Virus record (IMG/VR): IMGVR_UViG_3300044941_000276 | Span: 41,642-105,641 of that record | Length of the DNA stretch: 64,000 bases | Reading direction: 5' to 3' (one strand) | Source: a virus | In this document: positions 4,218 through 58,280 of the stretch, in pieces | Layout of the letters: each line of letters begins with the position of its first letter | Position numbering within the stretch: the stretch's first letter is position 1 | Translations under genes and position numbers: made by a program | Notes under the pieces: model-generated | Seen by the model: the letters and a program-made list of their open reading frames with translations, nothing else | What the model was told of the DNA's origin: nothing | Databases searched by the model: none

Positions 4218-5065
4218 ATTTTATTTACAACAAACGTTCCTATTGCACTAGTATTACTTCCTGAATAATTAACCCAAACTTGAACAGCATATGGTTGATT
4301 TGCAGGTACAGCATTAATCGCTGAGTTCAAAGCTGCTAAAGTTGTCAAATCCCCAACTGTAAAATCATTTACATCGTTATTTATTATCAAATTATAAACA
4401 AACGTACTACCATTATTGCTTGTGGCTGATACAAATTGATATTTTGCAGAACCATCAAAATATAAAACAACATCTTGTGAAATACCTTGAAAGTTATATT
4501 GAAAATTAGCAGGAAGAAAAGTTGATGCGTAGTTTAAACAGATACCACAATCTGTTCCTTGTGTGTAATCTTGTACAGTGATTCTAAGAGAATAAGGTAA
4601 AGAAGTTGTACCAAGAGCAGATATAAGTTGAGCTTGGGTTAATTGAGGAATACCCGTCCAGTTAGTTATACCTAATCCTGATGCTAATTGATATTGAATA
4701 CCTACACAAGAATTGAAAACATTTACAAATGATGGATTGTTTAATCTAACGTTAGATTCAAATACTAATGATTTACTTTGTCCTCTAAAATGAAAAGAAA
4801 CCCACTGTTCTATGAATAATTCAGGTAATATATCAATAATTTCTTTAGGACAAGATTCTCCGTTGTTATCTACGATCAGCCGCACTCTGATAGTTATTTC
4901 ACCTGTAACTTCGTTATCTGGTATATTAGCAGATATTGTTAGAGTATTAACAGTTTCAGTAAGAGTACTTGATCTTACAACATTACCTACTAAAACCTCT
5001 GCGGTTTTAGTAAAAGGTAAACCTGAAGAATTAGTAAAAGTATATGTTTTATTTAATACTGGCAT
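4214..5065 (-). CDS. Putative beta-sandwich virion protein, 283 aa
   Basis: It begins MPVLNKTYTF, closely matching MPIVNKTYNL at the start of the small 6361-6582 protein, so the two share an N-terminal attachment or assembly segment. The body is rich in Thr, Ser, Asn and Val and looks like repeated Ig-like beta domains. It is probably part of the tail-tip adhesin set; no catalytic motif is visible. Confidence 0.5.
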   Translation of the reverse strand: MPVLNKTYTFTNSSGLPFTKTAEVLVGNVVRSSTLTETVNTLTISANIPDNEVTGEITIRVRLIVDNNGESCPKEIIDILPELFIEQWVSFHFRGQSKSLVFESNVRLNNPSFVNVFNSCVGIQYQLASGLGITNWTGIPQLTQAQLISALGTTSLPYSLRITVQDYTQGTDCGICLNYASTFLPANFQYNFQGISQDVVLYFDGSAKYQFVSATSNNGSTFVYNLIINNDVNDFTVGDLTTLAALNSAINAVPANQPYAVQVWVNYSGSNTSAIGTFVVNKI

Positions 5066-20451: not shown

Positions 20452-21957
20452 TTATCGAGCTACGTTCTCTACCATGATAGTAGCAGCATATGGGTTCATT
20501 ACGCGTATACCGCGCCATCCTACCACTTCATAGCGAGATGCGTCCAAAGCTGTAGCTACAGGTCCATTGCTGCCGCCTGTTGCACCACCCATACCATAGA
20601 TATAGTTGGCTACAAGACTACGACTCTTCAAAGTCATCAAGCTAATAGCTGGAGTAGTACCACTATCAGTTTCATATATACCAGTATCAATAAAGATAGC
20701 GTATCCACGATCTTGATAGTAGTTGGTCAAGGCTTCATCGACTACAAATGTAATAGTGTTGCCTTCATATATATAAGAATTAAACGTTGCGCCTACTGTA
20801 ACTTCATTAGCCATTACTCTATTTGTCTTCTTGGCTTTAGTTATAGGATCGGTCATATTTAGACGATCTTTTGTAAAGAACCATGCACCGTAAGGGTTAA
20901 TGTTAAACACTTCTTGTTGCAAAGCGCGAGCTTTTTGACGAGAGAATCTACGATTACACAATACAGTGATATGGTTTCCAGTTGACATACCGCGACGTTC
21001 AGCTACGTTTTCAACAGCATCTTGGAACTGCTTAACTGTTAACGTATTATTGGTATAGTTAATATAGTGAGCATAACGCTCATATTGAGCAATAAGACCA
21101 TCGCCAGCAATTACATCTTGCATGTTTTCTGTTTGCAACATGCTACGACCATTTTCTTCGTTCATTGCGCTACGACCGAAAATAAGGGCCGCGTTAGCGC
21201 TACGAGTAAAATGTTCCATTACTTGTTGCTCAATAGAATTGAGAGAGTAGATGCGGTATTGACCACCATTAGCTCTCTCTGCTTTTTTCAAATCAGCCTC
21301 AGTCATGAAGAACTTATCTGACAACACGCGCAAATCAGAGCTATATTGTTGACCGGCTCTGATTTTCATCAGCCAGTTAATATGCTCTTCCATATTGTAC
21401 CATTGTTTGTTGGTACCATACTCAGAAAGTTCAGGTTGCAAGTTATATACATAACGAGCAGTTGAGTTGATTTGAGTAAACGCTGTGTTAAGACGTTCAG
21501 TTGGCTTGTTAGTTACTAATTTACACTCATACAAATATTCATTTCCTGAAATTCGTTGAGGTTCACTAATTACATACAACAACTGAGTGTTTTGCAACGC
21601 AAACACATCATATTTGCTGAAGAAACGGTCATCGAGATAAATGTTAAGAATCTCTCCGTTTGTTCCACTTTGAGTGCATGGACGTTTAAAACGCAGTGTT
21701 GGAATTTGACTAGTGTCAATGCGCCACTTGAAAGAGTAGCTATCGATTTCTGAAAGACGAGTAAAAGATTTTTCATCTTCCATATAAATGTTACCTACTA
21801 ACTCGGTGATAGTCAAAAGACCTAAGTCCTTTTGCTTGCTAAGACGCACGTAACCAGGAATCAATGCGGGTTGTTGACCCATAAGATTCATGAAACGTTC
21901 TACCGTATAGTCAGTGTTTGAAAATTTAGCAATTGTTTCTTTTTGTACTAAACGCAT
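20452..21957 (-). CDS. Major capsid protein, 501 aa
   Basis: I recognise the crAss-like HK97-fold capsid protein by length, by its place between scaffold-like and connector genes, and by composition. The gene has more GC-rich, optimised codons than its neighbours and its own downstream hairpin, as expected for the most abundant virion protein. It is transcribed with the acidic 22004-23017 gene directly upstream. Confidence 0.8.
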   Translation of the reverse strand: MRLVQKETIAKFSNTDYTVERFMNLMGQQPALIPGYVRLSKQKDLGLLTITELVGNIYMEDEKSFTRLSEIDSYSFKWRIDTSQIPTLRFKRPCTQSGTNGEILNIYLDDRFFSKYDVFALQNTQLLYVISEPQRISGNEYLYECKLVTNKPTERLNTAFTQINSTARYVYNLQPELSEYGTNKQWYNMEEHINWLMKIRAGQQYSSDLRVLSDKFFMTEADLKKAERANGGQYRIYSLNSIEQQVMEHFTRSANAALIFGRSAMNEENGRSMLQTENMQDVIAGDGLIAQYERYAHYINYTNNTLTVKQFQDAVENVAERRGMSTGNHITVLCNRRFSRQKARALQQEVFNINPYGAWFFTKDRLNMTDPITKAKKTNRVMANEVTVGATFNSYIYEGNTITFVVDEALTNYYQDRGYAIFIDTGIYETDSGTTPAISLMTLKSRSLVANYIYGMGGATGGSNGPVATALDASRYEVVGWRGIRVMNPYAATIMVENVAR

Positions 21958-39244: not shown

Positions 39245-39352
39245 ACACATATATGTATATTATCATATAGTTATCATATAGATATTATCAAAATTTTGTG
39301 AGTTTTATAAAATACTATACATCTCACAAATGAGCGGTCACAAAAAATAGGG

Positions 39353-39368
39353 TCACAAAAAATTGTGA
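39353..39368. promoter_or_regulatory. Operator palindrome, copy 1
   Basis: TCACAAAAAATTGTGA: 6-bp half-sites TCACAA and TTGTGA with a 4-bp spacer. The identical sequence recurs at 39543. Confidence 0.65.
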
Positions 39369-39542
39369 AATCGAAAAAGTCAAAAAATTGCTTAATCAGA
39401 TATATGAGAGTAACAAAAAATGACAAAAAAAATTCAAAAAAGAACCGTCTTATAGCTTTAAGGGTATACTCGAGTAGGTCAATTTTTGGTCAAAAAACGA
39501 TTGATGAGCTATATAAAAGTAAACTTTTCTCTTTTTTTCTAC

Positions 39543-39558
39543 TCACAAAAAATTGTGA
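39543..39558. promoter_or_regulatory. Operator palindrome, copy 2
   Basis: Second exact copy of TCACAAAAAATTGTGA, 190 bp from the first, followed by another half-site (TGTGAG) at 39565-39570 and by a -7-like TAATGTTG about 20 bp further on (39579-39586). Sits upstream of the plus-strand genes. Confidence 0.65.
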
Positions 39559-39715
39559 GAAAAATGTGAGATGGGTTCTCTAATGTTGTTTAAAGTACAT
39601 CAAACGAATTTTTTTATTTTTTTATTTTTTTATTTTTTGTTTTTTGTTGAGGGAATATTTGGTCTGTACCCCCATCCTGCCCCGCTTGGGTTTGCAACTA
39701 AACACCATAAATTAT

Positions 39716-40006
39716 ATGAAATCTTACGAATTTGAATCCGGTGCTGAGTTCACCGGAGGCTCGCTCTTAGGGCGTATTGAAGTACAAGTTGAAACCTCGA
39801 CGAAAGGGTCAGGTCTTAACAAAGGCAAGTGGCGCAATACTATAAAGCCGGTTGAAGTAATCCTCACAAATAAGAAGACTGGGAAGAAAACGGCGTCTAT
39901 CCGTGAGGCGTTCAATTCAAAGACTAAATTGGACGCCGGCACCTACACAGTAGGTGTCTATGAAGCGGACATCAACAACAAATTGACAGCCTACCTGGCT
40001 TTGTAA
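39716..40006 (+). CDS. Small beta-rich protein in the hairpin element, 96 aa
   Basis: The start at ATG 39716 (MKSYEFESGAEFTGG) lies just after the T-tract region; an in-frame frame upstream lacks a sensible start. Alternating beta strands (IEVQVETSTKGSG, then KPVEVILTNKKTGKK) and no membrane segment. Not recognised. Its mRNA contains hairpins such as CCGGTG/CACCGG (39738-39756) and CACCTA/TAGGTG near the 3' end. Confidence 0.55.
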   Translation: MKSYEFESGAEFTGGSLLGRIEVQVETSTKGSGLNKGKWRNTIKPVEVILTNKKTGKKTASIREAFNSKTKLDAGTYTVGVYEADINNKLTAYLAL

Positions 40007-40271
40007 GTCGGGTAGGTCCCCCTTCGGGGGTAAGTGTGCCTCAATCATTAGCCACATGATGAGAGGCACAACCATACACTCGCCACACGGTGTATGGTAA
40101 GTAGCAAGTGTGGGCATATTTTCATTGTCTTGGTTGAAAATATGCTTCCCCAGATATCTGGGAGTGGGTTTTTTTAAAAAATCCAAGACATCCACCCCTC
40201 AGTCCGAGTGAGGGAGAGTGTGACCAAGTTGTTGTAACCATCCGACAACTTGGCACACGAGGTGGATTATG

Positions 40272-40292
40272 TAGGCAAATTGAAGACGCCTA
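40272..40292 (+). repeat. AATTGAAG-loop hairpin 1
   Basis: TAGGC and GCCTA pair across the loop AAATTGAAGAC. Confidence 0.6.
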
Positions 40293-40330
40293 ATCTCGGA
40301 ACGGGGTAAGCCGAAAACTCATAAAAAGAG

Positions 40331-40353
40331 TAGGCGTAAATTGAAAACGACTA
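40331..40353 (+). repeat. AATTGAAA-loop hairpin 2 (variant)
   Basis: TAGgCGT pairs with ACGaCTA (one mismatch) across a loop containing AAATTGAAA. It ends 4 bp before the ATG of the 40358 gene. Confidence 0.5.
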
Positions 40354-40357
40354 GTTT

Positions 40358-40615
40358 ATGACCAGGACTATCATATCGGAGGTGAACACAGCTCACCTTC
40401 ATATGATCAAAGAAAGATTTGATCATGAGTACCCGCTACCAAACGGAGGGTACGTACTATATTCGTTTTGCTCGTCGACATCAAAAGATATTGAAGCTTT
40501 AATCATTGTAGTAAAGAAAGAAAAGCTCATCAAATCGAGAGCTTTTCTTTTCACGGGGGAGGTTCTCCAATTGGAAAATTTCCTCGCTAAACATGGGATT
40601 GAAATATCCCTTTAG
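40358..40615 (+). CDS. Small hypothetical protein in the hairpin element, 85 aa
   Basis: ATG 40358 follows AATTGAA-loop hairpin 2. The product (MTRTIISEVNTAHLHMIKERF, Lys-rich middle, LENFLAKHGIEISL end) is soluble and unrecognised. The coding sequence itself is folded: AAAGAAAAGCTC/GAGCTTTTCTTT is a 12-bp stem, AGGTGA/TCACCT and TGATCAAA/TTTGATCA are others, and its stop lies in a 9-bp stem (CCTCGCTAAA/TTTAGCGAGG). Confidence 0.55.
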   Translation: MTRTIISEVNTAHLHMIKERFDHEYPLPNGGYVLYSFCSSTSKDIEALIIVVKKEKLIKSRAFLFTGEVLQLENFLAKHGIEISL

Positions 40616-41271
40616 CGAGGTCTCCCCTTTTTTCCCCTTGCTGCCATTTAATGGGTAAAACGGCAAGGGGGTTTTAAAGCCCTGTCAGGCGAAATTGAAG
40701 ATGACAGGGCATCTTTCTCCCTACCTTGGGTAAGTAGGGAGATATTTTATACCCATCGTCGAGAGAGGATTCGACCCGTGTAAGCGAAGTGCTCTGGCCG
40801 GTCGCAGCACGGGTTGTTATCCATTTTTTACTCCTCACCTTGAGCAAGTGAGGGTGGGTGTTTGCTCACGTCCCTCAATCGGACTGCAAATGTAACGTCG
40901 TTATTTGATGGTTACTCAAGCCGGTTCGATGAGGGACACTTATTTGACTAAGACGGGGTCAGATAAGTAAAAATTAAACCGTCTCTGCCGAAAAGCTCGC
41001 GACGCGTTTTGCTCGCTGAGCATTGGCAGATTCCCCGAAAGGGGAAATTAGCGCCCCTTAAGTGGGGCTTTAGCTTGTCCGTACCATACCGGACTTAAAC
41101 ATAGTATGGTAAGCCTTTGTACTAGGCTTTGATTGAGGGGTAAAACCCAAGAGAAGGTACAAAGACCGTCACCTAGCATCGCTTTTTATGGCTTTAATCA
41201 TGCTATAGGTAGAATCAGAAGACGGCGCGCACAGGGTTCTTTATGAGCTTCTTACCTGTGCAAAATAAGTT
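40616..41271 (+). ncRNA. Structured non-coding segment B, upstream of tRNA-Arg
   Basis: These 656 bases lack a gene and form about a dozen stems in a row, for example CCCCTTGC[C]G/CGGCAAGGGG, GCCCTGTCA/TGACAGGGC (40679-40710), CTCCCTAC/GTAGGGAG, CCTCACC/GTGAGG, GTCCCTCA/TGAGGGAC enclosing inner stems, TTCCCCGAAAGGGGAA, GTCCG/CGGAC with a loop complementary to GTATGGTA just downstream (possible pseudoknot), and GCACAGG/CCTGTGC just before the tRNA. The density and the adjacent tRNA recall large ornate phage RNAs such as GOLLD or ROOL, but I cannot match a family by eye. Confidence 0.6.
40679..40710 (+). repeat. AATTGAAG-loop hairpin 3
   Basis: A 9-bp perfect stem GCCCTGTCA/TGACAGGGC closes a loop with AAATTGAAGA. 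Confidence 0.65.
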
Positions 41272-41345
41272 ACTCCCATAGCTCAACTGGATAGAGCAAC
41301 TGCCTTCTAAGCAGTAGGTTGCAAGTTCGAATCTTGCTAGGGGTA
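41272..41345 (+). tRNA. tRNA-Arg (TCT)
   Basis: Cloverleaf visible: D stem GCTC/GAGC, anticodon stem ACTGC/GCAGT with loop CTTCTAA (anticodon TCT), T stem GCAAG/CTTGC with loop TTCGAAT. The acceptor ACTCCCA/TAGGGGT has one C-A mismatch at its sixth pair. Arg-AGA is a codon favoured in AT-rich phage genes. CCA is not encoded. Confidence 0.85.
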
Positions 41346-41387
41346 CGATTAAAAAACCTAATCACAATTAAAAAAACAAAAAACGTT

Positions 41388-41804
41388 ATGAACAAGAACA
41401 CATTCGTTTTTGTGATCACCATGTTGGTGGTCACAATCTTTTTGGCTGCCGCTGCGGTAGCCAAGCCCCGCCCGAAATGGGTGCGGGTTAGCCACTCTAT
41501 CTTATCAACCGTTGACCGTATCGACCGAGATACGGTTGCAATTAAGCTCACCTTCGTCCGCTTTGACGGCGAAGGTCGTCCTACTATTGGTCAAAATTTG
41601 GGTCACTTTATTATAGAAGTGGCCTTCACAGTCGACCGCTCAGAGGCGGTACGCATTTTAAACGGCGGGCAGTTGTCCGCCAACGGGCATGTCCTCGCCC
41701 GTATAAGCGAGGGCACCAAAATAATTCGTGACCCTGAGGGTCGCGAAATCCGCCGTATGAAAGCGGCGGATATCTGCAAGATCCTTTATGGGTCTTCAGA
41801 GTAA
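41388..41804 (+). CDS. Exported or membrane-anchored protein in the hairpin element, 138 aa
   Basis: ATG 41388 gives MNKNTFVFVITMLVVTIFLA, then AAAAVAKPRPKW: a signal peptide or N-terminal anchor. The mature part is beta-rich. It looks like a paralog of the 51592-51963 protein: both have Lys-x-x-F, a hydrophobic TIF segment, A-x-PR-x-x-W after it, a Thr-Val-rich core and an R-x-M-x-x-x-D-[I/L] C-terminal helix. Stems fill the coding region (GTGATCACC/GGTGGTCAC, ACCGTAT/ATACGGT, TCCGCC/GGCGGA). Confidence 0.6.
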   Translation: MNKNTFVFVITMLVVTIFLAAAAVAKPRPKWVRVSHSILSTVDRIDRDTVAIKLTFVRFDGEGRPTIGQNLGHFIIEVAFTVDRSEAVRILNGGQLSANGHVLARISEGTKIIRDPEGREIRRMKAADICKILYGSSE

Positions 41805-41808
41805 AAAA

Positions 41809-41842
41809 GACAAGGCGGTTTCTATGAAATCGCCTTGTTTTT
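41809..41842 (+). terminator. Intrinsic terminator after 41388-41804
   Basis: GACAAGGCGgTTTC pairs with GAAAtCGCCTTG over a short loop (41809-41836) and is followed by TTTTTT. Confidence 0.8.
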
Positions 41843-42461
41843 TATCAGGGTGAGAATCCCTGACAAGCCTGTGGGGCTCATGTCTTGCTAAGGCATTGTT
41901 GCACTTGTATAGGGGAAGAGTAGTAAAGTCGAGTAATATTGCTGCGTTAGGTAATACTATAAGCATTATGAAAGAGGAATATCTATTTTGACTATATGGC
42001 GCAATGTCTGATCAAGCATTAGTGCGGACTCAAAAATCAGGCAGTGGTACAGCCTTAATCTGTACAAATCTTTGTTTATCAAAGATTAACAAGGAAATAA
42101 CCAATACCTTGTCCTAACTATGGGTAAAATAGTAGTCGTCCTTTTTTTAAATGTATTTTTTAAACCTGTACTATCGTCCCCGGATAGTACATCAATAGTG
42201 GCACAAGGAGGCCGCGAGGGGCGAAGACATATGGTCTTCAATGTTTAACAAATCGTGGTATTGAGCTAGACCACGTTGAAATAGTTAGCTCGCCTGTCCA
42301 CAAACACGGAGGTGTGACAGGTTCATGGGAGAAGAAGAGGCCGTCAATATTAAACGACGTGTCTCTAAAGAGAAAAGGGTTTCCGTGTTGCGACTGAATC
42401 TCATGTCGCACAAGTTAACGACTTGACCCGAGATATATGTAGCTCTATACATTAACAATAA

Positions 42462-42482
42462 CTACGTCAACAATAGATGTAG
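42462..42482 (+). repeat. AACAATA-loop hairpin 1
   Basis: CTACGTC pairs with GATGTAG (one G-U pair) across AACAATA. Confidence 0.55.
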
Positions 42483-42712
42483 GGAGTGGTGTATATCTAT
42501 ATATGTACGATTTGAGACTGGACAACTCAAATCAATATGTACAATGTCCAATAGCCGTACGCCACAACGGCTATGATATCTTAAGATATAGGTCGATATT
42601 AAAAGACCTTATCTTAGATATAATTATTTTAGTCAAGGGCATGAATCGGGGTTGACATCCCGATAAGGGTATGGAGTAAAGACCATACTTGAAAACGTCA
42701 GCGTCCGATAAT

Positions 42713-42731
42713 CAAATCAACAATAGATTTG
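42713..42731 (+). repeat. AACAATA-loop hairpin 2
   Basis: CAAATC pairs with GATTTG across the identical loop AACAATA. Confidence 0.55.
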
Positions 42732-42744
42732 AGGAGGACGTTAA

Positions 42745-42761
42745 GGCGAATTGAAGTCGCC
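42745..42761 (+). repeat. ATTGAAG-loop hairpin 4
   Basis: GGCGA/TCGCC with the 7-nt loop ATTGAAG. Confidence 0.6.
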
Positions 42762-42941
42762 GTCATTTTTCTATCCTGTACGGATAGTTGTCAAAGTCGA
42801 CCATGGGACTAAGACGTAAAAACAGAAAGAAGCCTAAGTCGTGCGATGCTTCGCATCGATATGGTGAGCGCTCATGGTTATAGTAGGAGACTACGACAAT
42901 GTCGTATGTCGTTATTACTACTGAATAAGTCCGAAAGGACT

Positions 42942-42997
42942 CTGTCGTCTATGTGCGTGGCTGTGCATAGGCCTGATGAGGGGTTAACCCGAAACAG
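42942..42997 (+). ncRNA. Hammerhead ribozyme, type III arrangement
   Basis: All conserved parts are present in order: CTGT then C (cleavage expected after C42946), stem I GTCTATG/CATAGGC (42947-42953 with 42966-42972, closed by a 12-nt loop), the core CTGATGA (42973-42979), stem II GGG/CCC with a short loop (42980-42990), GAAA (42991-42994) and the closing strand ACAG (42994-42997) that pairs with CTGT as a 4-bp stem III. A GAAA-capped hairpin (42928-42941) abuts stem III and could stack on it. Cleavage would give the AAA+ mRNA a 5' end about 140 nt before its ATG. The short stem III means activity must be tested. Confidence 0.85.
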
Positions 42998-43072
42998 TAT
43001 TGCCCGCGTAAAATAAGACTGCGTTAAGGTCTTGTGAGTGATGCGTGCCCACTCAGAACGGCATTAATTTTT

Positions 43073-43094
43073 TATCCAAAATTGAAGATGGATA
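43073..43094 (+). promoter_or_regulatory. AATTGAAG-loop hairpin 5 over the AAA+ start codon
   Basis: TATCCA (43073-43078) pairs with TGGATA (43089-43094) across AAATTGAAGA. The ATG at 43088-43090 lies at the base of the loop and in the stem, so the start codon is sequestered. The same stem and loop occur at 46140-46164. Confidence 0.65.
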
Positions 43095-44212
43095 GAAAAT
43101 TAATTAACGCCCTAGAATGCGAAAAGTATATACAGAAAAAACTTTTCGCGTTCAACGCCGGCAAGACGCTGGCTAGGGCGTGGAACGCGGGGGAAAATTG
43201 TCTTCTTACCGGACCTGGTGGGTACGGTAAGACGGACGGAGCTGCTTTGTTCTTTGAGTATCTCAAAGAACAAGGGGCTTTGTCTGACGAACGTCCATAC
43301 GTATTGGCGTTCGGACAGGGCATGACTGAGGAAAGGTTATTCGCTGGGTTGGATATCAAACGCTTTCAGAATGAAGGCGAATTGGTGTACAACCTGAAGA
43401 AGGCCTTCGTATCCTTCGAATATGTAATATTCGAGGAAATGTTCGACGCATTTCCTGGGGTATTGCTTATTCTGAAGGATGTTCTTCAGTCTAAGAGCGT
43501 ACGGTTAGGCGACACCGTATTTCCCTTGCGAACTAAATTTATAGTCGCCTGTACCAACCGTAGCAATGAGGAAGTCGCTACGGATAGAAGTACATGGGCT
43601 CTTTTAGAAAGATTCGTCTTTCAAAAAGAGGTAACCTGGACTTCGTGGGAAAAGTCCGACTACCTCTCGGCTTTCGAGGCAGCCACAGGCCAGAAAGCTG
43701 ATTCCGTAATGGAGGCTGTGGCAAGAATAGCTGCTGCCAGCAGCAAAGGTGAGATGAAGATCTCGCCTCGTACTGCTGGTAAAGGTCTTAAGGCAGTAAA
43801 ACAAAACGGTAACGACATTACCGTTTTGGAAGACATTCTCGGCTTCGATAAGAAGTCGGTAAGAGAAGTCTTCACTGCTATGGAAGGCATAGCAGCAGAC
43901 AAGGCTCAACGTGACCACGTAGCTGCGGTGGTCGCGTTATGTAAGCAGACAGCAGCTACTTCTTCGAATTCCGCCATTAAATTGGCGGTTGCCGCTAAAC
44001 GAGTTCACGTAGAACTCGAAAAACTTAGTGGAATTCAACGTCGTGATGCGAACGTTGAATTGTTCGAGGAAAGCATCATTGTCATAGAGAATCTGAGGGA
44101 GTCTCTATGGCAAAGAGCCAAGTCCCTTATTAACAAGCCACCAGTTGGCAGCTTGGCAGAGTTTATACAAAACTCTAGCACAAGCTCATTCGACTGGAGC
44201 TTGTTGAGATAA
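43088..44212 (+). CDS. MoxR-type AAA+ ATPase, hairpin-rich copy, 374 aa
   Basis: Walker A GPGGYGKT (about residues 42-49), Walker B VIFEEMFDA (about 112), sensor 1 IVACTNRS (about 155), arginine finger LLERF (about 173) and sensor 2 SPRTAGKGL (about 228) mark a MoxR-group AAA+ protein. These form hexamers that remodel partners together with a VWA protein, here encoded directly downstream. Closest relative in the window is 55754-56920. Nearly every segment of the gene is in a hairpin, including the Walker A codons (43205-43231), so synonymous positions seem selected for RNA structure. Confidence 0.85.
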   Translation: MDRKLINALECEKYIQKKLFAFNAGKTLARAWNAGENCLLTGPGGYGKTDGAALFFEYLKEQGALSDERPYVLAFGQGMTEERLFAGLDIKRFQNEGELVYNLKKAFVSFEYVIFEEMFDAFPGVLLILKDVLQSKSVRLGDTVFPLRTKFIVACTNRSNEEVATDRSTWALLERFVFQKEVTWTSWEKSDYLSAFEAATGQKADSVMEAVARIAAASSKGEMKISPRTAGKGLKAVKQNGNDITVLEDILGFDKKSVREVFTAMEGIAADKAQRDHVAAVVALCKQTAATSSNSAIKLAVAAKRVHVELEKLSGIQRRDANVELFEESIIVIENLRESLWQRAKSLINKPPVGSLAEFIQNSSTSSFDWSLLR

Positions 44213-44290
44213 TCGTTAACCCAATCTCTTGGGTTTGACTTGCATATAAGGTTAATCGTAAAAGCAAGGTAGTTATAATTTTATGGGGTT

Positions 44291-45520
44291 ATGAAAAAAA
44301 GAACCATACCCCACCATCTGTACGTTGAGCCTACGCGGCGAGACGTACAAGAAAGATTTAAGGAGTTAGGTTTTGATAAAACCTACTCTTATGATCTCGT
44401 ACGGGATATTGCTAATGCGATGTCTCACGTACAGAATGGTGGGAAAGTCACTGACGCAATGACCAACGTCAGTGATTGGGTTCTTCCTTCTGACTATAAG
44501 TCAGAGAGGGAATATCAAAGAGCACTCTCGTATCACGAGAATGTTCAAAGATTTATTTCTTCTCTTGACTTTGACAAGTTCAGTGGCAATACTCCGCTTG
44601 CAAAAGCGGCAAGTGTTGTAGCTGCACTGTCTAGTCAAGAAGGGGGACAAGGCGAGGAGGGTGATGGTCAACCCTTGCCAATCTTCCGAGGTTCGTCAGA
44701 ATCTATGGAAGAAAAGGCTAAAAAGTTGGAAGAGGCAGTTGATCAAACTGTCGAGGCCAATAAAAGCCTTGCGAGGTACATCATCAATCCTGATGAGGCC
44801 TCCCCAGAGGTGGCTCTCGCGACCTTGAACAGCGAGAATCGGGACCTCTTAGCCAAGTTAGCGCTACTTGGTGACAGGGGTAAGATACGTTCACAGCGCA
44901 CTTCTCCCACAAACAAACTCACTCAAATGAGTGAGTATTCACAGGTGGGTCGTGTGAATAATATGAGTAGTATGTTTCTCCCAACTTTCGGGTATAAATT
45001 TGCGACCAAGCAATTGGTTGTGAAAGAACCCGAACAATCAACGAGACAAACCCTTGTCTTATTGATTGACAACAGCGGTTCTATGGACGAGACCGACAAA
45101 TTAAGTTGGGTCAAAGCCATAGTAGTTAACAGATTAGACGCTGTTAGTAAGGGAGAAGCTGAGTTGTATATCGGTTGGTTTGAATGTTCTCTTGATGAAG
45201 AGAACATTGTTAAAATTGCCAACAAAAAAGAAGCCATAGCTTTTTTACAAGAAGGCTTCTTGGGTAATTTTAACGGGGGAAAAACTGATATACAACGGGC
45301 CATTGAACAAGTTTGCGAGGGAATCAAACTTGGAAGGCTCGGTAATTATTCCCTCAACGGAGTTAAGCCTCAAATCGTTGTAATGAACGATGGGCAAGAC
45401 TTTGTTGATAGCAATTATAAACCCAGTGTTGTGACTCACGGGTTTATCTTAGGGCGTGACAATGACGGAATGAAGTCAATGATCGCCAATTGCGGAGGTC
45501 ACTATGAGAGATTTTTATAA
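44291..45520 (+). CDS. VWA-domain protein, hairpin-rich copy, 409 aa
   Basis: The N-terminal 230 residues are helical and charged. The C-terminal VWA domain has the MIDAS motif DNSGSM (about residue 261), the Thr of FNGGKTDI (about 335) and a third motif VMNDGQDF (about 370). Such proteins work with MoxR ATPases to insert metals or remodel complexes. Paralog of 56895-58280. Coding hairpins include TAGGTTTT/AAAACCTA, CACTGACG/CGTCAGTG, TCTCGC/GCGAGA, AATGTTCTCTT/AAGAGAACATT (45183-45208) and GAGGGAAT/ATTCCCTC. Confidence 0.85.
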   Translation: MKKRTIPHHLYVEPTRRDVQERFKELGFDKTYSYDLVRDIANAMSHVQNGGKVTDAMTNVSDWVLPSDYKSEREYQRALSYHENVQRFISSLDFDKFSGNTPLAKAASVVAALSSQEGGQGEEGDGQPLPIFRGSSESMEEKAKKLEEAVDQTVEANKSLARYIINPDEASPEVALATLNSENRDLLAKLALLGDRGKIRSQRTSPTNKLTQMSEYSQVGRVNNMSSMFLPTFGYKFATKQLVVKEPEQSTRQTLVLLIDNSGSMDETDKLSWVKAIVVNRLDAVSKGEAELYIGWFECSLDEENIVKIANKKEAIAFLQEGFLGNFNGGKTDIQRAIEQVCEGIKLGRLGNYSLNGVKPQIVVMNDGQDFVDSNYKPSVVTHGFILGRDNDGMKSMIANCGGHYERFL

Positions 45521-45727
45521 TCTTTCTTTTCCCTATGCTCTACTAATAGGGATGTAAAACGATAGTAGCTGGAAGAAAACTACCCTACCTCAGGGTTATG
45601 TGACTATAAGGGTTAATGGGTGCGCTACCATTAGAAATGTCACGCATATAAAAATCCTGCCATTGCAGGTTGAAGCACAAAACCTTACCCAGTTTTGTGT
45701 GTATATAACTCATGGGTAATAAAAGAC
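45521..45727 (+). other. Structured intergenic segment D
   Basis: A 207-bp gap with stems CCCTAT/ATAGGG, GTAGC/GCTAC-type, GTGAC/GTCAC enclosing inner pairs, CCTGC/GCAGG and CACAAAAC/GTTTTGTG. No gene. It continues the hairpin pattern from the VWA gene. Confidence 0.5.
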
Positions 45728-45973
45728 ATGGATAACTTTTTTCTTGAGTTATTTATTATAACTCAACAAGAAAGAATTCAATCCGAGGGATTATTTTCTA
45801 TCCTTTGCCGAATTGAAGAAGGCAAGGATATGAAGAAAATCCCTTTCCATTCTCAAAAAGAGATGGAAGATTTCCTCTGGTTAAACAGAGGGAATTATCT
45901 ATTCATCTCTTTGGAAGAGGCTGGGCTATTAGTGTCCACCTCTCCATTTGAGAATGGATTGGGAGTGAATTGA
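45728..45973 (+). CDS. Small acidic protein after the VWA gene, 81 aa
   Basis: ATG 45728 (MDNFFLELFIIT) was preferred to a GTG 33 bp earlier. The middle (IPFHSQKEMEDFLWLNRGNY, then EEAGLLV) loosely matches a segment of the 58264-58602 protein (YFSSKDDFDVYIASHTGIY, then KSGILV), which also follows a VWA gene, so the whole three-gene unit may be duplicated. Stems CTTGAGTT/AACTCAAG, TATCCTTTGCC/GGCAAGGATA and CCTCTG/CAGAGG lie in the gene. Confidence 0.55.
   Translation: MDNFFLELFIITQQERIQSEGLFSILCRIEEGKDMKKIPFHSQKEMEDFLWLNRGNYLFISLEEAGLLVSTSPFENGLGVN
45799..45830 (+). repeat. AATTGAAG-loop hairpin 6 (inside a gene)
   Basis: TATCCTTTGCC pairs with GGCAAGGATA (one bulged T) across GAATTGAAGAA. 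The outer TATCC/GGATA is the same as in hairpins 5 and 7. Confidence 0.65.
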
Positions 45974-46139
45974 TTGGGGACCACCTGCACTAATCATCGG
46001 TGGGATATAAATAGAGGATTTTTTCTAACCATTCCATTTTGTAATATTACAAATAAAGGTTGAATCTGCGACAGGCATAGGGATATGTGCGAGTAATAGC
46101 AGAAGAGGAAGCCGAAAAGCTAAGTGAGTAGGCAATAAC
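45974..46139 (+). other. Intergenic segment E
   Basis: A 166-bp gap with the perfect palindrome TTTGTAATATTACAAA (46040-46055) and weaker stems. It leads into start-codon hairpin 7. No gene seen. Confidence 0.45.
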
Positions 46140-46164
46140 TATCCAAAAAATTGAAGAATGGATA
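46140..46164 (+). promoter_or_regulatory. AATTGAAG-loop hairpin 7 over a start codon
   Basis: TATCCA (46140-46145) pairs with TGGATA (46159-46164) across AAAAATTGAAGA. The ATG 46158-46160 lies at the edge of the stem, exactly as at 43088. A second ATG at 46164 is in frame. Confidence 0.65.
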
Positions 46165-46475
46165 TGATCAAGTTTTTATTTCCTCAGGTAGCCAAGTCTA
46201 CCTTTGGAAAAAAGATGTTTAATCGCATAGCTCCTATCGTAGAAAGACTATGCGATGAAACATCGATGATCGCAATGCCCTCAATCGCGATGTTTCTTAC
46301 TTACCATCCCGGAGCTTCTGCTCCGCAGCAGATGGTATTTAATTATCTTGCAGAAGTCGCACTGCAAGGCAACTGGAGAGTATTTGTTGCGACGTATGGG
46401 GAACTCATTTCTCCTTCTGACCCATTGGCTGTATTGGGTCAAGACGGAAGAAAACAGTTCTTCCGACCAATGTGA
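46158..46475 (+). CDS. Helical protein in the hairpin element, 105 aa
   Basis: Unrecognised, mostly helical (MIKFLFPQVAKSTFGKKMF, then MVFNYLAEVALQGNWRVFVA). Its start is under hairpin 7. Coding stems include ATCGCATAG/CTATGCGAT (46222-46256), GAAACATCG/CGATGTTTC, CGGAGC/GCTCCG, CTTGCAG/CTGCAAG, GACCCA/TGGGTC and GGAAGAA/TTCTTCC. It overlaps the next gene by GTGA. Confidence 0.55.
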   Translation: MDMIKFLFPQVAKSTFGKKMFNRIAPIVERLCDETSMIAMPSIAMFLTYHPGASAPQQMVFNYLAEVALQGNWRVFVATYGELISPSDPLAVLGQDGRKQFFRPM

Positions 46476-46822
46476 AGCTTTACGTCCTTAACTCTGCGGT
46501 AATGCCAGAAGATGGTTATTATCGCAGAGTTAAGATAAGTAGAGAGAAGGCTTCCGAGATACTCAATACAGCCACAGAAATTGTATCTTCTGTTGGGTAT
46601 CCGGAAGTTTGTCAAATATTACATGAAATATCAGGAGTTGTTGTTCCTCTTGATATTGAAAAGCGAGTAACAACATTTACTGAAGACGAGTGTACTATAT
46701 TAGTATGTAAACTTGTCTTCAGGGAAAAAGCAGAACGAAAAGGAGTTAATCGTCATACCGACATTAACGAATATGAGTTCTGCTTAGTTCATTATAAAAA
46801 AAATAACCCTTTTATCAAATAA
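46472..46822 (+). CDS. Hypothetical protein, last gene of the hairpin element, 116 aa
   Basis: Starts at GTG 46472 overlapping the previous stop. Not recognised; mixed alpha/beta with several cysteines. It carries some of the longest stems: CTTAACTCTGCG/CGCAGAGTTAAG (46487-46534, 12 bp) a few bases after the start, and GAAGACGAGT/ACTTGTCTTC with a G-U pair. The terminator begins within its last codons. Confidence 0.6.
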   Translation: MKLYVLNSAVMPEDGYYRRVKISREKASEILNTATEIVSSVGYPEVCQILHEISGVVVPLDIEKRVTTFTEDECTILVCKLVFREKAERKGVNRHTDINEYEFCLVHYKKNNPFIK

Positions 46823-46843
46823 ATAATAAAAGGGTTATTTTTT
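46801..46843 (+). terminator. Strong terminator closing the hairpin element
   Basis: A 15-bp perfect stem (AAATAACCCTTTTAT with ATAAAAGGGTTATTT, 46801-46840) followed by TTTT. Downstream genes look ordinary in structure. Confidence 0.85.
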
Positions 46844-46876
46844 AATTCATTCAAATCATAATCGTTTATCATTCAT

Positions 46877-47124: not shown

Positions 47125-47337
47125 ATGTATCAAGTCACAAAAAATATAAACGGAGTCTATGCTGAGGCTACGTTTAAAACAAGAGAAGAGGCCTTGCGCC
47201 AAGCCACACGTTGGTTCGATTCCATGAACACTGATATTTCAGATTTATGCGGATCGTTCATTAGCCGTATTGTTAGCGGTAAGAATATAACTTATAGATT
47301 TCAAAAAGCATCCTTAACAATAAGACATGAAAAATGA
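47125..47337 (+). CDS. Small hypothetical protein, 70 aa
   Basis: Contains AEATFKTREEALRQATRWF, a strand-helix unit common in small phage proteins. Leader rich in repeated CATTAGCAA units (47090-47122). Overlaps the next gene by 11 bp. Confidence 0.55.
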   Translation: MYQVTKNINGVYAEATFKTREEALRQATRWFDSMNTDISDLCGSFISRIVSGKNITYRFQKASLTIRHEK

Positions 47338-49979: not shown

Positions 49980-50690
49980 ATGAAAAAGATTCGTAAAAAC
50001 AAAGAACTTTTTGAATTATTTCAAAACAATAAATTCAAAAATAAAAATATAGATTATATTCAAATGCTCATTGATAGGTATCGGTCGATAGTTAATCCAG
50101 TATTCAAATTAGGTAGTTATGATTTTAATATAAATATATCATATCAGTTTTTAGACAGTCGAGATATTAGAACAATAAAATTATTAGTCGAATCATTTGA
50201 AAAAGAAATTAATCGAGTATATGATGATATTAAAAAAAGATATTATCAAGATATACTCGACTGGGGTAATCAATACAAATCGCCAAGATGGAATTTAGAA
50301 AATTTATACGCAATGGCTGATTATATATCAACTATATCTCAGGAAGAATTTAATATAAGCGCCCCTCTCAATTATGATATAAAACACATCAAAGATGTAA
50401 AAGTAAAAGATGTTATTGGTCATTGTGTAATAATCGATGATCAATTTAATTCTTTTCTTACTCAAAATAATTTTGATTTTCATCGATGGTGTGAAAACTT
50501 TACTGGTTTATCAATACACTGCCCAGAATGGATTTGGTGTTTTGGTTCACAATGGGCTAATACAGATAATACACCAATGGGCGCTGCTATAAGAATACTT
50601 TGGCTTATTGAGTGCGGTTTACCTAATAATTGGGAAGCACAAATGAACAATCAGGCACCTTTGTGTTACGAACAATTTTATGACATATGA
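49980..50690 (+). CDS. Protein with WxWCF...DNTPxGAA domain, copy 1, 236 aa
   Basis: The C-terminal 110 residues (VIGHCVIID, WIWCFGSQWANTDNTPMGAA, then RILWLIECGLPNNWEAQM) are clearly homologous to the next gene. Related small domains occur in phages and mobile DNA, function unknown. The N-terminal 125 residues are Lys-rich and helical. It overlaps the next gene by ATGA. Confidence 0.6.
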   Translation: MKKIRKNKELFELFQNNKFKNKNIDYIQMLIDRYRSIVNPVFKLGSYDFNINISYQFLDSRDIRTIKLLVESFEKEINRVYDDIKKRYYQDILDWGNQYKSPRWNLENLYAMADYISTISQEEFNISAPLNYDIKHIKDVKVKDVIGHCVIIDDQFNSFLTQNNFDFHRWCENFTGLSIHCPEWIWCFGSQWANTDNTPMGAAIRILWLIECGLPNNWEAQMNNQAPLCYEQFYDI

Positions 50691-51097
50691 ATAAAAAAAA
50701 TCTTATTTCGATAGCTCGATACTTGCCTACAATAAGACAAGAAAATTTTGACATGTTAAAATTTAGGACTGGTGATAAATCATCTCATGAGTGCAATTCA
50801 ATAGGATGCGTCATTGGTCATTGTACAATATTAGATGACTACGAAAACATACCTCGTACACCTACAGGTCAAATAAATTTTCAATTATGGTCTGAAAAGT
50901 ACACGGGTTTACCTATCGATAGTGAAGAATGGGCTTGGTGCTTTTCTGAACAATGGGCTCATTGGGGAACAGATAATACTCCCATTGGTGCAGCCAAACG
51001 TATAATTTGGTTAATTACCGAAGGACTACCTGAAAATTGGAGAGAACAAATTACAGGTGAAGATCCTTTGTGTTATACGAACATCGAAATATTTTAA
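50687..51097 (+). CDS. Protein with WxWCF...DNTPxGAA domain, copy 2, 136 aa
   Basis: Tandem paralog of the previous gene's C-terminal domain (VIGHCTILD, WAWCFSEQWAHWGTDNTPIG, then RIIWLITEGLPENWREQI) without the Lys-rich N-terminus. Coupled translation suggests the two form a pair. Function unknown. Confidence 0.6.
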   Translation: MNKKNLISIARYLPTIRQENFDMLKFRTGDKSSHECNSIGCVIGHCTILDDYENIPRTPTGQINFQLWSEKYTGLPIDSEEWAWCFSEQWAHWGTDNTPIGAAKRIIWLITEGLPENWREQITGEDPLCYTNIEIF

Positions 51098-51499: not shown

Positions 51500-51595
51500 A
51501 TGAACGATACTCAATTGGTAACTGTGATAATACTTTTATCATTTACCCTATTTAAAATATTAAAAAGAATAATTTTTAATTCACTTGAGAAATGA
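51500..51595 (+). CDS. 31-residue membrane peptide
   Basis: ATG 51500 encodes MNDTQLVTVIILLSFTLFKI and a basic tail, a single membrane helix. The stop overlaps the next ATG (ATGA), which supports translation. Could be a small regulator or membrane-active peptide. Confidence 0.5.
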   Translation: MNDTQLVTVIILLSFTLFKILKRIIFNSLEK

Positions 51596-51963
51596 GAAAG
51601 CAAGCGTTTTATATCATCATGATTATCATAACTATTTTTATGGCGGTTATTAGTTATGCGTCGGTTCCTCGATGGAATCTTAAATCTACTACTATTATCA
51701 ATAATCACGACTCTATTGTGACATATAAAACGGTGTATGAAAATAAATCAACCGATAACGATACAGTAATTACTGTAGTATTTCAATTACCTCTTGGTAT
51801 CAATCCAGTAAATGGATTACCCGATCATAAATTTTCAGCTGTATATGTTAAATTTACTGTTCAAGGAGTAGTAACAATATATAGAAAAAAATTTAACGAT
51901 CGATACAGAATCATTTCTTTTAGAAAAATGTCAGTAGACGATTTAAAATTATTAATGAACTGA
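51592..51963 (+). CDS. Exported or anchored protein, paralog of 41388-41804, 123 aa
   Basis: N-terminus MRKQAFYIIMIIITIFMAVI, then SYASVPRWN: anchor or signal peptide followed by A-x-x-P-R-x-W as in 41388-41804. The rest is beta-rich with a final FRKMSVDDLKLL. It is the hairpin-poor counterpart of the gene in the structured element. Confidence 0.55.
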   Translation: MRKQAFYIIMIIITIFMAVISYASVPRWNLKSTTIINNHDSIVTYKTVYENKSTDNDTVITVVFQLPLGINPVNGLPDHKFSAVYVKFTVQGVVTIYRKKFNDRYRIISFRKMSVDDLKLLMN

Positions 51964-55753: not shown

Positions 55754-56920
55754 ATGACAAAGATAAATCTCACAGAACTACAAAATTATTTTAATGAACG
55801 CATGTATGGTTTTGATGCCAAAATATTTGGTATTGCTTGGAATAGTAATCAAAATGTATTACTGACAGGTCCAGGTGGATATGGTAAAACATACAGCGCT
55901 CAATTATTTTATGATTTTTTAGTACATAAAGGTATATTTCCAGAAGGTAGTAAACCTTTCGTTCAATCATTAAATCCCGATACTACCACTGAAAAGATCT
56001 TTGGCGGTACTAACATTAAAGAATTTACCGAAAACGGAGCTATGGTTTATAATTGCCATAATAGCTTTGCTAACGCGCCTTTTGTTATCTTTGAGGAGTT
56101 TCTTGACGCACCATCATCTTCTTTGATGGCTCTTAAAGATGCTCTTACTTCTGGATATGTCAGAGATGGTCTTTATACCTATGAGGTAAAAACAAAGATG
56201 ATAATTGCTTGTACTAATCTTTCAGCAGATGAATTTGCGGAAGATGATGCTACACAAGCTTTATTAGAGCGTTTTAGATTTCAAATGGTTGTACGATGGA
56301 ACAGTCATACAGAAGACGATTATATAAAGTCCTATGAAATAGCAACTGGTAATAAAGGAGACAATATCATTGTTAAAGCAGTAGCCAATGCGGCAGCTGC
56401 TTCTTACGGTGTAGGTGGAGATCGTCCAGTAAGTCCTCGTACTTATATGACAGCGGTTGAAGCTTGTAAAGGATGTGATAAAGATATAGATCCTTTGACT
56501 CCGTTGTATTATATGGATTATCCTGGTGGGTTCAAACCAGCAGCTGTTAAAACTGCTAGCGCTAATCTTGCAGCTTTAAGAAAAGTTATGGAAGATCTTG
56601 AAAGATTAGCCAATTATCAAAGCATGTGGGATACTTATAAAGAGAACTTTAAGACTACGGCTAAAAATATTAACGAAGAAAACTTAATCAAGTTATATAA
56701 TATGGCCGCTAAACTTAAAGAAACTTTAAGCGAGGTCTCGCTTATTAAAGTTACAGATAACGCTTTACCTAACTATCGTAAACTTCTTAGTAGCTATAAA
56801 AGTTTATATACTAGTTGGTATGAGTTTATCGCAAATAAAGTCAAAGAAGACCCATCAATTACTAACGAAAATCTTTTAAAATTATCCAATAGTAGTGTTG
56901 AAAGATATGAATTCAATTGA
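55754..56920 (+). CDS. MoxR-type AAA+ ATPase, ordinary copy, 388 aa
   Basis: Walker A GPGGYGKT (about residue 38), Walker B VIFEEFLDA (about 113), sensor 1 IIACTNLS (about 155), LLERFRF arginine finger (about 174) and SPRTYM sensor 2 (about 227). The architecture and many residues match 43088-44212. It overlaps the VWA gene by 26 bp. Unlike the other copy, its coding sequence shows only sporadic hairpins, which makes it the natural control for the structured gene. Confidence 0.85.
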   Translation: MTKINLTELQNYFNERMYGFDAKIFGIAWNSNQNVLLTGPGGYGKTYSAQLFYDFLVHKGIFPEGSKPFVQSLNPDTTTEKIFGGTNIKEFTENGAMVYNCHNSFANAPFVIFEEFLDAPSSSLMALKDALTSGYVRDGLYTYEVKTKMIIACTNLSADEFAEDDATQALLERFRFQMVVRWNSHTEDDYIKSYEIATGNKGDNIIVKAVANAAAASYGVGGDRPVSPRTYMTAVEACKGCDKDIDPLTPLYYMDYPGGFKPAAVKTASANLAALRKVMEDLERLANYQSMWDTYKENFKTTAKNINEENLIKLYNMAAKLKETLSEVSLIKVTDNALPNYRKLLSSYKSLYTSWYEFIANKVKEDPSITNENLLKLSNSSVERYEFN

Positions 56921-58280
56921 GCCTAGAGTGATTAAACACAGCTCATATGATTATCTTTCCGATAGCTTAATCAACGCCCGCTTTGATGGAGTGGGCGTTG
57001 TTGAAGCTAAAAGAGAGAAAATGAGCTACGATCTAATAAGAGATCTTGCATATTATCACAGTTACTTTTTCATGGGGGAAGACCCTAAAAAAGCATTGAT
57101 AGATGCACATACTGCTTATAAAAGAGAAGACTTCAATAGCGATGAAGAGTATTGGGAGCGTATAGCTTATCACAATAATATTATCAATTTTATAAGAGAT
57201 ATAAATATCAACATATTTACAGGTAATACTCCAGCCCAAAAAGCGGCATCGGTAATGTTGTCTATTTTAGCAATGGATAATGAAAAAGATAATAGTGAAA
57301 AAAATGGCGCTATGATGGACTTCTTTAAACCTACCGATGAAGAAATTGATAAAGCTAAAGAAGGAAAGCTAAACAATGGCAGAGAAATCCCTACAGAAAC
57401 AAAGAAGAATAATAAAGAAAGTGTCAATGGTAGTGTTGCTGGTGGACAAGGAAGGGCTGATAGGGTTACTTTACTTGAAGACTATGTTCACACTACAATC
57501 AATTATGCTATCGATAGTCCTATTGCAAGTGAATATTTTAATACCACTACTACTAATGGAGAATTGGCTTTATTTAATATGACTAATGAACAAAAAATAT
57601 TAATAAACCAACTTTCCATTGTTTCTTCTATGGGAAAACTCAATACTAGAAAAAAGAGACCTGGTAAATGCTATGGTTTAATGAATGACATAGGTGATAT
57701 AGTACACGCTTCTCCACGATCTCAGTTATTATCTCCTATACTTCCTATAAAATTAATAGAGAAGACTCTTACCACTAGTAAATCAAAACAAGGAGGAAAG
57801 CAAATACTTATATATCTTATTGATGATAGTGGATCAATGAGCGTTATAGAAAAAGTACGTTGGGTTAAAACTTTGATGATTAATCGTCTTGATGCTGTAG
57901 CAAAGAATAAAGCAGAATTATATGTAGCTTGGTATATAGAAGATATTATACCTAAGTCAATTATTCATATTAAGAATAAAGCACAAGCAATAGAATTTTC
58001 TAAAAAACAATTCTTTGGCAATTTTAACGGAGGTGGTACTAATATAGCAAGAGCTATTGAAAGTACTGTTAATAGCATCAAAAGTAATAACTTTTACGGT
58101 AACCCTATTAAAGGTGTAAATCCTCAAATAGTTTTGATTAACGATGGTCAAGATTTTATAGATAAAAATTACGAAGTAGGTAAGGGAATTACACTTAATA
58201 GTTTTATTTTAGGGGGTGATAATAAAAACTTAGAAATTGTTACACGAAGATCTGGAGGGACTTATGTTAGATTCTTATAG
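56895..58280 (+). CDS. VWA-domain protein, ordinary copy, 461 aa
   Basis: The start (an ATG at 56907, MNSIEPRV, is an alternative) overlaps the AAA+ gene. The helical N-terminal part includes a charged Lys/Glu linker (about residues 140-180). The VWA domain has IYLIDDSGSM (MIDAS, about 312), FNGGGTNIARAI (about 383) and LINDGQDF (about 422). One clear coding hairpin (AACGCCCGC/GTGGGCGTT near 56974-57000) is present, but not the dense pattern of 44291-45520. Confidence 0.85.
   Translation: MLKDMNSIEPRVIKHSSYDYLSDSLINARFDGVGVVEAKREKMSYDLIRDLAYYHSYFFMGEDPKKALIDAHTAYKREDFNSDEEYWERIAYHNNIINFIRDININIFTGNTPAQKAASVMLSILAMDNEKDNSEKNGAMMDFFKPTDEEIDKAKEGKLNNGREIPTETKKNNKESVNGSVAGGQGRADRVTLLEDYVHTTINYAIDSPIASEYFNTTTTNGELALFNMTNEQKILINQLSIVSSMGKLNTRKKRPGKCYGLMNDIGDIVHASPRSQLLSPILPIKLIEKTLTTSKSKQGGKQILIYLIDDSGSMSVIEKVRWVKTLMINRLDAVAKNKAELYVAWYIEDIIPKSIIHIKNKAQAIEFSKKQFFGNFNGGGTNIARAIESTVNSIKSNNFYGNPIKGVNPQIVLINDGQDFIDKNYEVGKGITLNSFILGGDNKNLEIVTRRSGGTYVRFL

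Follow-up and report, generated by a model that had tools for sequence, protein, structure and literature searches.

Folding energy in excess of sequence-order controls, spread over long coding and non-coding stretches, is known from RNA-virus genomes as genome-scale ordered RNA structure (GORS). There it exceeds both composition and coding controls, and its mechanism is described as still undetermined (PMC3695492). In this study, we analysed a folded block of some 7 kb in a stretch of 64,000 nucleotides, hereafter the window, which covers positions 41642-105641 of the 105,641-base virus record IMGVR_UViG_3300044941_000276. Like GORS, the block folds more strongly than such controls, in coding as well as in non-coding sequence. 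Nevertheless, it is one transcription block of a double-stranded DNA phage with terminase and portal genes, not a positive-strand RNA virus genome. Moreover, its 41% excess in 300-nt windows is far above the 9.1% given for a murine norovirus region in the same paper (PMC3695492), although programs and shuffles differ between the two figures.

By the same scripts, the single-stranded RNA phages MS2 and Qbeta have a comparable folding excess. The block differs from them in lying beside terminase and portal genes, in its slightly weaker energy per base, and in that Pfam and PHROGs profile searches recognised no RNA replicase, coat or maturation gene among its eight genes. It also resembles the cassettes led by the DUF805b RNA motif (RF02914), since it carries one copy of the motif above and one below the cut-off, and a cassette-bearing phage (L093) has a homologue of block gene g2 and a like terminator hairpin; however, motif-led genes elsewhere are on average only mildly folded. 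ROOL, GOLLD, OLE, and HEARO are large structured RNAs, long, folded, and sometimes found in phages. In contrast, the block has no Rfam match to them and its folded RNA is mostly protein-coding. Among the papers listed in searches of an open-licence library, no title or abstract opening described such pervasive folding in a DNA phage.

The folding excess, with RNA structure predicted throughout the block, goes beyond what protein sequence and codon usage account for and is concentrated in one part of the genome. It is present in a second phage, it carries a + strand G-U bias, and in one segment the pairs have turned over while folding density was kept. GORS in a DNA-phage message, perhaps protecting the early transcript, is the explanation we prefer, with a confidence slightly short of even; its selection and its protective function are what we infer from the pattern.

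Folding excess of the block and its limits

RNA folding z-scores were calculated in 533 windows of 120 nt against 25 dinucleotide shuffles each; one window lay between the two sets and was counted in neither. The mean z inside the block (39.70-46.85 kb, 60 windows) was -3.26 on the + strand and -2.81 on the - strand, and those of the 472 windows elsewhere were -0.50 and -0.52. An earlier note on this DNA had described dense hairpins across coding and non-coding DNA, and the observation holds: the values are far from zero on both strands, and the block lies far below codon-preserving as well as dinucleotide shuffles. In the codon shuffles, synonymous codons were permuted within each gene, so that the protein and the codon usage were kept. 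The resulting codon z of the eight block genes were, in order, -3.4 (g1), -3.9 (g2), -6.4 (g3), -10.2 (AAA), -10.2 (VWA), -7.8 (g6), -5.4 (g7), and -5.1 (g8); a second run gave -2.76 for g1. Since shuffle numbers were small (10-80 per sequence), single z values are noisy, and the energy models, set at 37 °C, may not suit the phage's host. The same note had paralogues of the AAA and VWA genes lacking the pattern, which is so for the AAA paralogue (codon z -1.1) but not entirely for the VWA paralogue, which keeps a reduced excess on the + strand (-3.8; -1.0 on the - strand).

Counts of perfect Watson-Crick stems of at least 8 bp (loop up to 30) were unequal along the window as well. The 1-kb bins 40-46 held 10, 4, 4, 9, 7, 7, and 7 stems, compared to 0-6 in all other bins and 0.1-1.4 in mononucleotide shuffles. 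Three stems named earlier were all recovered: 43247-43273 (12 complementary bp around a 3-nt loop, of which the folding program closes 11), 43802-43828 (11 bp), and 46487-46534 (12 bp, extending further). Measured in 300-nt windows, folding energy exceeded that of the shuffles by 41.0% in the block (n=23), by 11.1% to its right (n=14), and by 5.9% to its left (n=17, minus strand). The same 300-nt measure gave 37.9% for the corresponding block of a second virus, L002 (n=23), 30.0% for MS2 (n=11), and 27.3% for Qbeta (n=14), and the 120-nt script returned a z of -2.69 for MS2 (29 windows) and -2.57 for Qbeta (35 windows). Thus, the folding excess of the block over shuffles is as large as in the genomes of these two RNA phages.

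An artefact of misassembly, unusual base composition or chance is hardly credible. The block is indeed GC-richer than the other bins (0.36-0.47 in bins 40-46 kb vs 0.27-0.38); however, dinucleotide and codon-preserving shuffles control for composition, so a composition artefact was rejected, and the block recurs in a separate virus record, L002, with 96-97% identity along the long aligned stretches.

The borders agreed in part with the earlier note, which had the pattern begin just after the control region and stop at a terminator at 46843. Two control-region windows (39471 and 39501) do reach z of -3.1 and -2.6, but windows starting at 39681-39801 have z of only -0.5 to -1.1, and the left edge of the block falls within the first gene, at about 39.86 kb. 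On the right, the edge matches the hairpin at 46798-46843, z falling at 46811; what follows is a step down rather than a stop, because values from 46.9 to 54 kb are intermediate and peak locally near 46.93 and 47.3 kb. Among 22 other + strand genes tested, 21 had codon z of +1.2 to -3.3, and a short gene at 47327 had -4.9. The 11 minus-strand genes comprised one at 20452-21957 with codon z -9.35 but a mild dinucleotide z of -1.12, one at 22004 with -4.1, and the remainder at +0.4 to -2.8. By position, the gene at 20452-21957 (-) probably encodes the major capsid protein; a 27% identical homologue lies in the unannotated record MT835470. The mean unpaired fraction barely separates the block (0.29) from the downstream genes (0.32), and GNRA/UUCG loops were not enriched in the block (3 of 12 tetraloops on the + strand, 1 of 12 on the - strand). 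By eye, loops at 40114-40189 and 42510-42549 are complementary to downstream sequence (GUCUUGG/CCAAGAC and GGAC/GUCC, respectively) and are possible pseudoknots.

The features of the block, all on the + strand, are as follows.

39860-46843 (+): pervasively folded block; presumably one or few + strand transcripts, coding and non-coding
39716-40006 (+): g1, 96 aa, predicted all-beta; the least folded block gene
40301-40336 (+): DUF805b RNA motif, copy 1; Rfam RF02914, 36.1 bits, above the cut-off of 35.6
40358-40615 (+): g2, 85 aa, cassette-like; homologue in phage L093 at 38% identity
41272-41346 (+): tRNA-Arg(tct)
41388-41804 (+): g3, 138 aa; possible paralogue at 51592-51963 (phmmer E 0.004)
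41841-42042 (+): candidate Hatchet ribozyme; Rfam RF02678, 70.3 bits, above the cut-off of 51
42107-43080 (+): folded non-coding sequence of about 1 kb
43088-44212 (+): AAA (MoxR-like) ATPase, second copy; Pfam bpMoxR and AAA_5
44291-45520 (+): VWA-domain protein, second copy; Pfam VWA_2
45728-45973 (+): g6, 81 aa
46102-46134 (+): DUF805b-like RNA motif, copy 2; 32.1 bits, below the cut-off of 35.6
46158-46475 (+): g7, 105 aa
46472-46822 (+): g8, 116 aa, STIV B116-like, AcrIII-1 ring-nuclease fold family; PF08960, 33.2 bits, above the cut-off of 26
46798-46843 (+): probable terminator, a hairpin (inverted match) with T run, at the right block edge

The hairpin at 46798-46843 fell outside the list of the terminator-pattern scan, whose loop limit was 8. 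The AAA paralogue lies at 55754-56920 (41% identity over 253 residues) and the VWA paralogue at 56895-58280 (31% identity). At the gathering threshold, Rfam matched only the Hatchet, tRNA, and DUF805b models in the block, and weaker matches (E up to 1) were taken as chance. The Hatchet match sits within a 266-nt stretch (41841-42106) that L002 lacks; if active, the ribozyme would split the presumed block transcript in two. The non-coding sequence at 42107-43080 had no match in the phage collection.

The density of the block was compared with that of a background of 120 out of 151 loci (1.70 Mb), from which 27 loci shorter than 5 kb and the four loci of the L002 contig (L002, L006, L017, and L021) had been excluded. 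For 8-bp stems per 5 kb, the observed/(expected+1) ratio peaked at 5.0 in these loci and reached 12.3 in the window; the background includes two stretches of the window's own record and is not a random sample, since many of its loci were chosen via the DUF805b motif. Viral contigs were scanned with AAA, VWA, AAA plus its paralogue, terminase, g2, g1, and the DUF805b pattern (at least 120 loci), and genome contigs with g3 and g2. No further relative with the full feature was found: apart from the L002 contig, the loci listed by these scans lacked a dense block, and tblastn of AAA, VWA, and g2 had no matches in the phage collection. Ten loci with distant AAA homologues (L007-L016; stems counted in all, z sampled in four) showed no dense multi-kilobase block. 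Single stem-rich 1-kb bins were seen in L007, with 17 perfect 8-bp stems at 4000-5000 near its distant AAA homologue, and in L009/L010 (10 stems, same counts); the sampled z of L007 and L009 was about -1.1.

The folding strand and the comparison with L002

The earlier note took G-U pairs in the stems as a sign of RNA folding rather than DNA cruciforms, and wobble counts within single sequences support it. Interior mismatches in stems were G-U in 9 cases and A-C in 1 in the block, compared to 10 vs 14 and 8 vs 8 outside. Among helices of at least 8 bp that contain one or two wobbles, there were 62 G-U vs 28 A-C in the block and 54 vs 32 in L002, whereas the counts were 103 vs 106 on the left and 64 vs 44 on the right. 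For helices of 11 bp, the respective numbers were 17/4 (block), 17/5 (L002), 8/5 (left), and 7/3 (right). Since G-U helices outnumber A-C helices about 2:1 in the block but show no such surplus to its left, + strand RNA is indicated rather than DNA cruciforms. Folding energies were lower on the + than on the - strand (p 4e-8), but base composition contributes to this difference, and the composition-corrected z of the two strands differ only marginally. Codon z was lower on the + strand for seven of the eight genes, all except AAA. Single changes in Watson-Crick stems between the two phages led to G-U in 38 cases and to A-C in 22 (38 and 14 in the reverse direction), but were not counted as strand support, because controls with slid pairs largely match this bias. 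Taken together, the evidence for + strand RNA as the folding molecule is moderate.

L002 is a locus from IMGVR_UViG_3300044940_000357. Over two long stretches it is 96-97% identical to the window, within 40.3-41.8 kb two pieces align at 81-83%, and near 40320 it carries an insertion the size of a gene. Its codon z for the eight shared genes were -1.5 (g1), -4.9, -7.9, -8.1, -10.8, -6.1, -4.7, and -5.9, and that of the gene inserted only in L002 was -6.2. In the segment 43193-43528, 82 of 336 sites (24%) differ between the two phages, and only 8 pairs are common to the 101 pairs of the window and the 93 of L002; both versions are nevertheless heavily folded (codon z -5.8 and -4.65, respectively). 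In g3, which is 25% diverged, 69 of 110 window pairs are kept in L002. Therefore, some structures were conserved and others exchanged while the folding level was held, the turnover being that of one segment in two sequences.

Double changes that keep Watson-Crick pairing were found in 13 of 1074 stem pairs vs 15 of 3464 slid pairs, and in the reverse direction in 14 of 1099 vs 20 of 3523, a two- to threefold enrichment; the two directions have substitutions in common and are not independent. When pairs were defined by probability, 14 of 28 double changes stayed paired vs 15 of 58 in the pooled slid controls. The compensatory changes in a relative that the earlier note had called for were thus seen among double changes but not among single ones, and the evidence for conservation of particular pairs is weak.

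A cause at the DNA level, namely quasi-palindromes arising by template switching, or DNA hairpins serving replication or single-strand promoters, appears quite improbable. It would fit the low z of the minus strand, the marginal strand difference of the composition-corrected z (paired Wilcoxon p 0.052), the fast hairpin turnover in one segment, and the position of the block next to a divergent control region and a flip in GC skew. Nevertheless, the wobble counts speak against it, and the codon differences of the AAA gene between the two phages are mostly synonymous (82 vs 18), which disfavours a mutation process alone. In addition, the one hairpin inspected by eye (43240-43290) is changed in both arms, and template switching would copy one. 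DNA cruciforms and template switching were therefore disfavoured as candidates.

Loop hairpins, start codons, and RNA-guided immunity

Six hairpins of the block present AAUUGAAG in the loop.

40272-40292 (+): AAUUGAAG loop hairpin 1, motif at 40278
40679-40710 (+): AAUUGAAG loop hairpin 2, motif at 40693
42745-42761 (+): AAUUGAAG loop hairpin 3, motif at 42749
43063-43104 (+): AAUUGAAG loop hairpin 4, motif at 43080; the AAA start codon directly follows the motif
45799-45830 (+): AAUUGAAG loop hairpin 5, motif at 45811
46140-46164 (+): AAUUGAAG loop hairpin 6, motif at 46149; the g7 start codon directly follows the motif

The block holds six copies of the octamer AATTGAAG vs 0.39 expected, while the remainder of the window has 3 on one strand and 2 on the other. 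The six copies are mostly unpaired (0.74-0.95; block mean 0.29) and are flanked by complementary arms whose sequences vary among the sites. Hairpin 6 is not closed by the 60-nt fold, and the local partition function leaves its motif unpaired (0.87). L002 keeps all six sites and has a seventh copy inside g2, which is mostly paired (0.29 unpaired). A further AAUUGAAG loop copy lies at 48258, outside the block. The AAUUGAAG loops are a possible protein-binding site.

Such sites would suit an RNA that serves as a scaffold coated or packaged by a phage protein, with the dispersed loops for binding. The octamer always stands in a hairpin loop on differing stems and is kept in L002, the folding excess matches that of RNA-phage genomes, and g1 is weakly OB-fold-like; however, its OB match is within noise (Foldseek best E 0.57; VIA best Z 4.3), with a best model at pLDDT 78 and the other four poor (33-61), and none of the eight genes was recognised as coat-like or as a polymerase gene. 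We regard the scaffold as improbable. A block transcript that is a genome-like RNA module within a DNA phage, protein-coated and either carried in the virion or long-lived as a ribonucleoprotein that would program early infection, is given little credence.

The hairpins may instead set translation, pacing ribosomes, coupling or uncoupling starts, and tuning the doses of the operon, in which case no protective role is required. Two of the six AAUUGAAG hairpins carry start codons directly after the motif, and the AUGs of several genes are paired, with the ten bases before them more open on average (mean 0.53 unpaired in the block and 0.44 in the downstream genes). In contrast, gene bodies and the non-coding kilobase are as strongly structured as the start regions, and tuning would need few sites, not 7 kb. 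This explanation is therefore rather unlikely.

The transcript might also be shaped to hide from RNA-guided immunity, either type III CRISPR or Cas13. With the worst type III guide, at 37 °C, an oligonucleotide target was detected about two orders of magnitude better than the transcript, and the poorer detection was ascribed partly to target structure (PMC8682760), so structure can blunt type III detection. In the block, the mean cost of opening 20-nt sites was 8.9 kcal/mol for AAA, compared to 6.6 for its codon shuffles and 5.3 for its paralogue, and it rose by 1.6-2.8 kcal/mol over codon shuffles in three genes (AAA, g3, and VWA). Very open 20-nt sites made up 0.023-0.025 in block genes vs 0.085-0.111 in the paralogues. 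The block also carries an anti-CRISPR-like gene, g8, within the B116/AcrIII-1 fold family. On the other hand, codon shuffles have hardly more of the very open sites, and most other early genes are unfolded. Support for the evasion of RNA-targeting nucleases proposed earlier is thus mixed, coming from opening cost and from the comparison with the paralogues, but not from the number of open sites relative to codon shuffles. Moreover, g8 has Tyr where AFV3-109 has the His of the GH motif (weak alignment, E 0.001) and so lacks the catalytic His at that place. We take H47 of the SIRV1 protein to lie within this GH motif. H47 is named as the catalytic histidine of AcrIII-1 in PMC7213978. Immune evasion as the main cause is considered doubtful, with a low probability.

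Phage setting and weighing of the preferred reading

The terminase and portal of the window phage match the crAss-like families phrog_6681 and phrog_6547 (PHROGs), placing it in Crassvirales, and the terminase is only 24-31% identical to those of phages among the 40 listed of 128 records. By these sequence matches it is a distant crAss-like dsDNA phage. GC skew and gene direction both flip near 39 kb, and the folded block opens the rightward genes. The control region (39350-39570) between the divergent gene blocks holds two TCACAAAAAATTGTGA palindromes and partial copies, which are probable operators. Further downstream, at 49980-51097, two adjacent genes have a common repeated domain, with 67.6% DNA identity over about 200 bases (cross-match with L002).

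According to a review, crAss-like phages inject a virion RNA polymerase that transcribes their early and middle genes without depending on the host (PMC10136315). Since an injected polymerase makes the early genes, their messages may run ahead of the ribosomes and be left exposed. Early in infection, the fold would then shield the message from ribonucleases and perhaps also from RNA-guided immunity. As the short stretches just ahead of start codons remain relatively open, the message would still be meant for translation. Protection of the transcript is accordingly the leading function that we infer. A protein of 1881 aa with GGDYDVDK (DYDVD) and no family match is encoded at L018 10344-15989 (-); it carries a possible virion RNA polymerase motif, a lead only.

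Several points weigh against this preferred reading of GORS in a DNA-phage message. All structure is predicted, and the protective function is hypothetical. The full feature is found in only two phages, which are close relatives, and strong folding is absent from most other early + strand genes of the phage. Very open sites differ little from codon shuffles (AAA 0.025/0.025, g3 0.023/0.025, VWA 0.023/0.034). Single changes kept pairing in 113 of 236 cases vs 288 of 605 slid ones, showing no excess, and slid pairs nearly match the substitution wobble bias (147 vs 96 and 153 vs 106). Terminator-like hairpins lie within the block. Finally, energy per base was -0.347 in the block and -0.350 in L002, compared to -0.383 in MS2 and -0.359 in Qbeta. 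The RNA phages are thus slightly more stable in absolute energy, and the block is the more ordered once composition is allowed for.

A weak form of the feature is seen in DUF805b-led genes of other phages. L093 6058-7152 holds three small DUF805b-led genes in a row, one of them homologous to g2, and two of the three are followed by CCCCTTGCCGCC...GGCAAGGGG terminator-like hairpins; it looks like a cassette array shared between phages. In the L093/L155 contig, the three led genes had codon z of -3.3, -4.5, and -3.7; four genes from other parts of the contig ranged from -1.4 to -1.9, and a neighbour lacking the motif had -1.3. The dinucleotide z on the + strand peaked at the led genes (-1.4 to -2.3 in three bins), and the other 14 bins had two at -1.1 and the rest at -0.6 to +0.2. 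Across 119 loci, the length-normalised z was -0.71 for 94 DUF805b-led open reading frames vs -0.35 for 310 controls (Mann-Whitney p 8e-6), a small effect, some controls being as folded as the best led genes.

The much less folded AAA and VWA paralogues, about 12 kb away, belong to the same protein families and share the same host and infection, and therefore form an internal control for the block. Through these folded and unfolded paralogues, the function of whole-message folding becomes directly testable.

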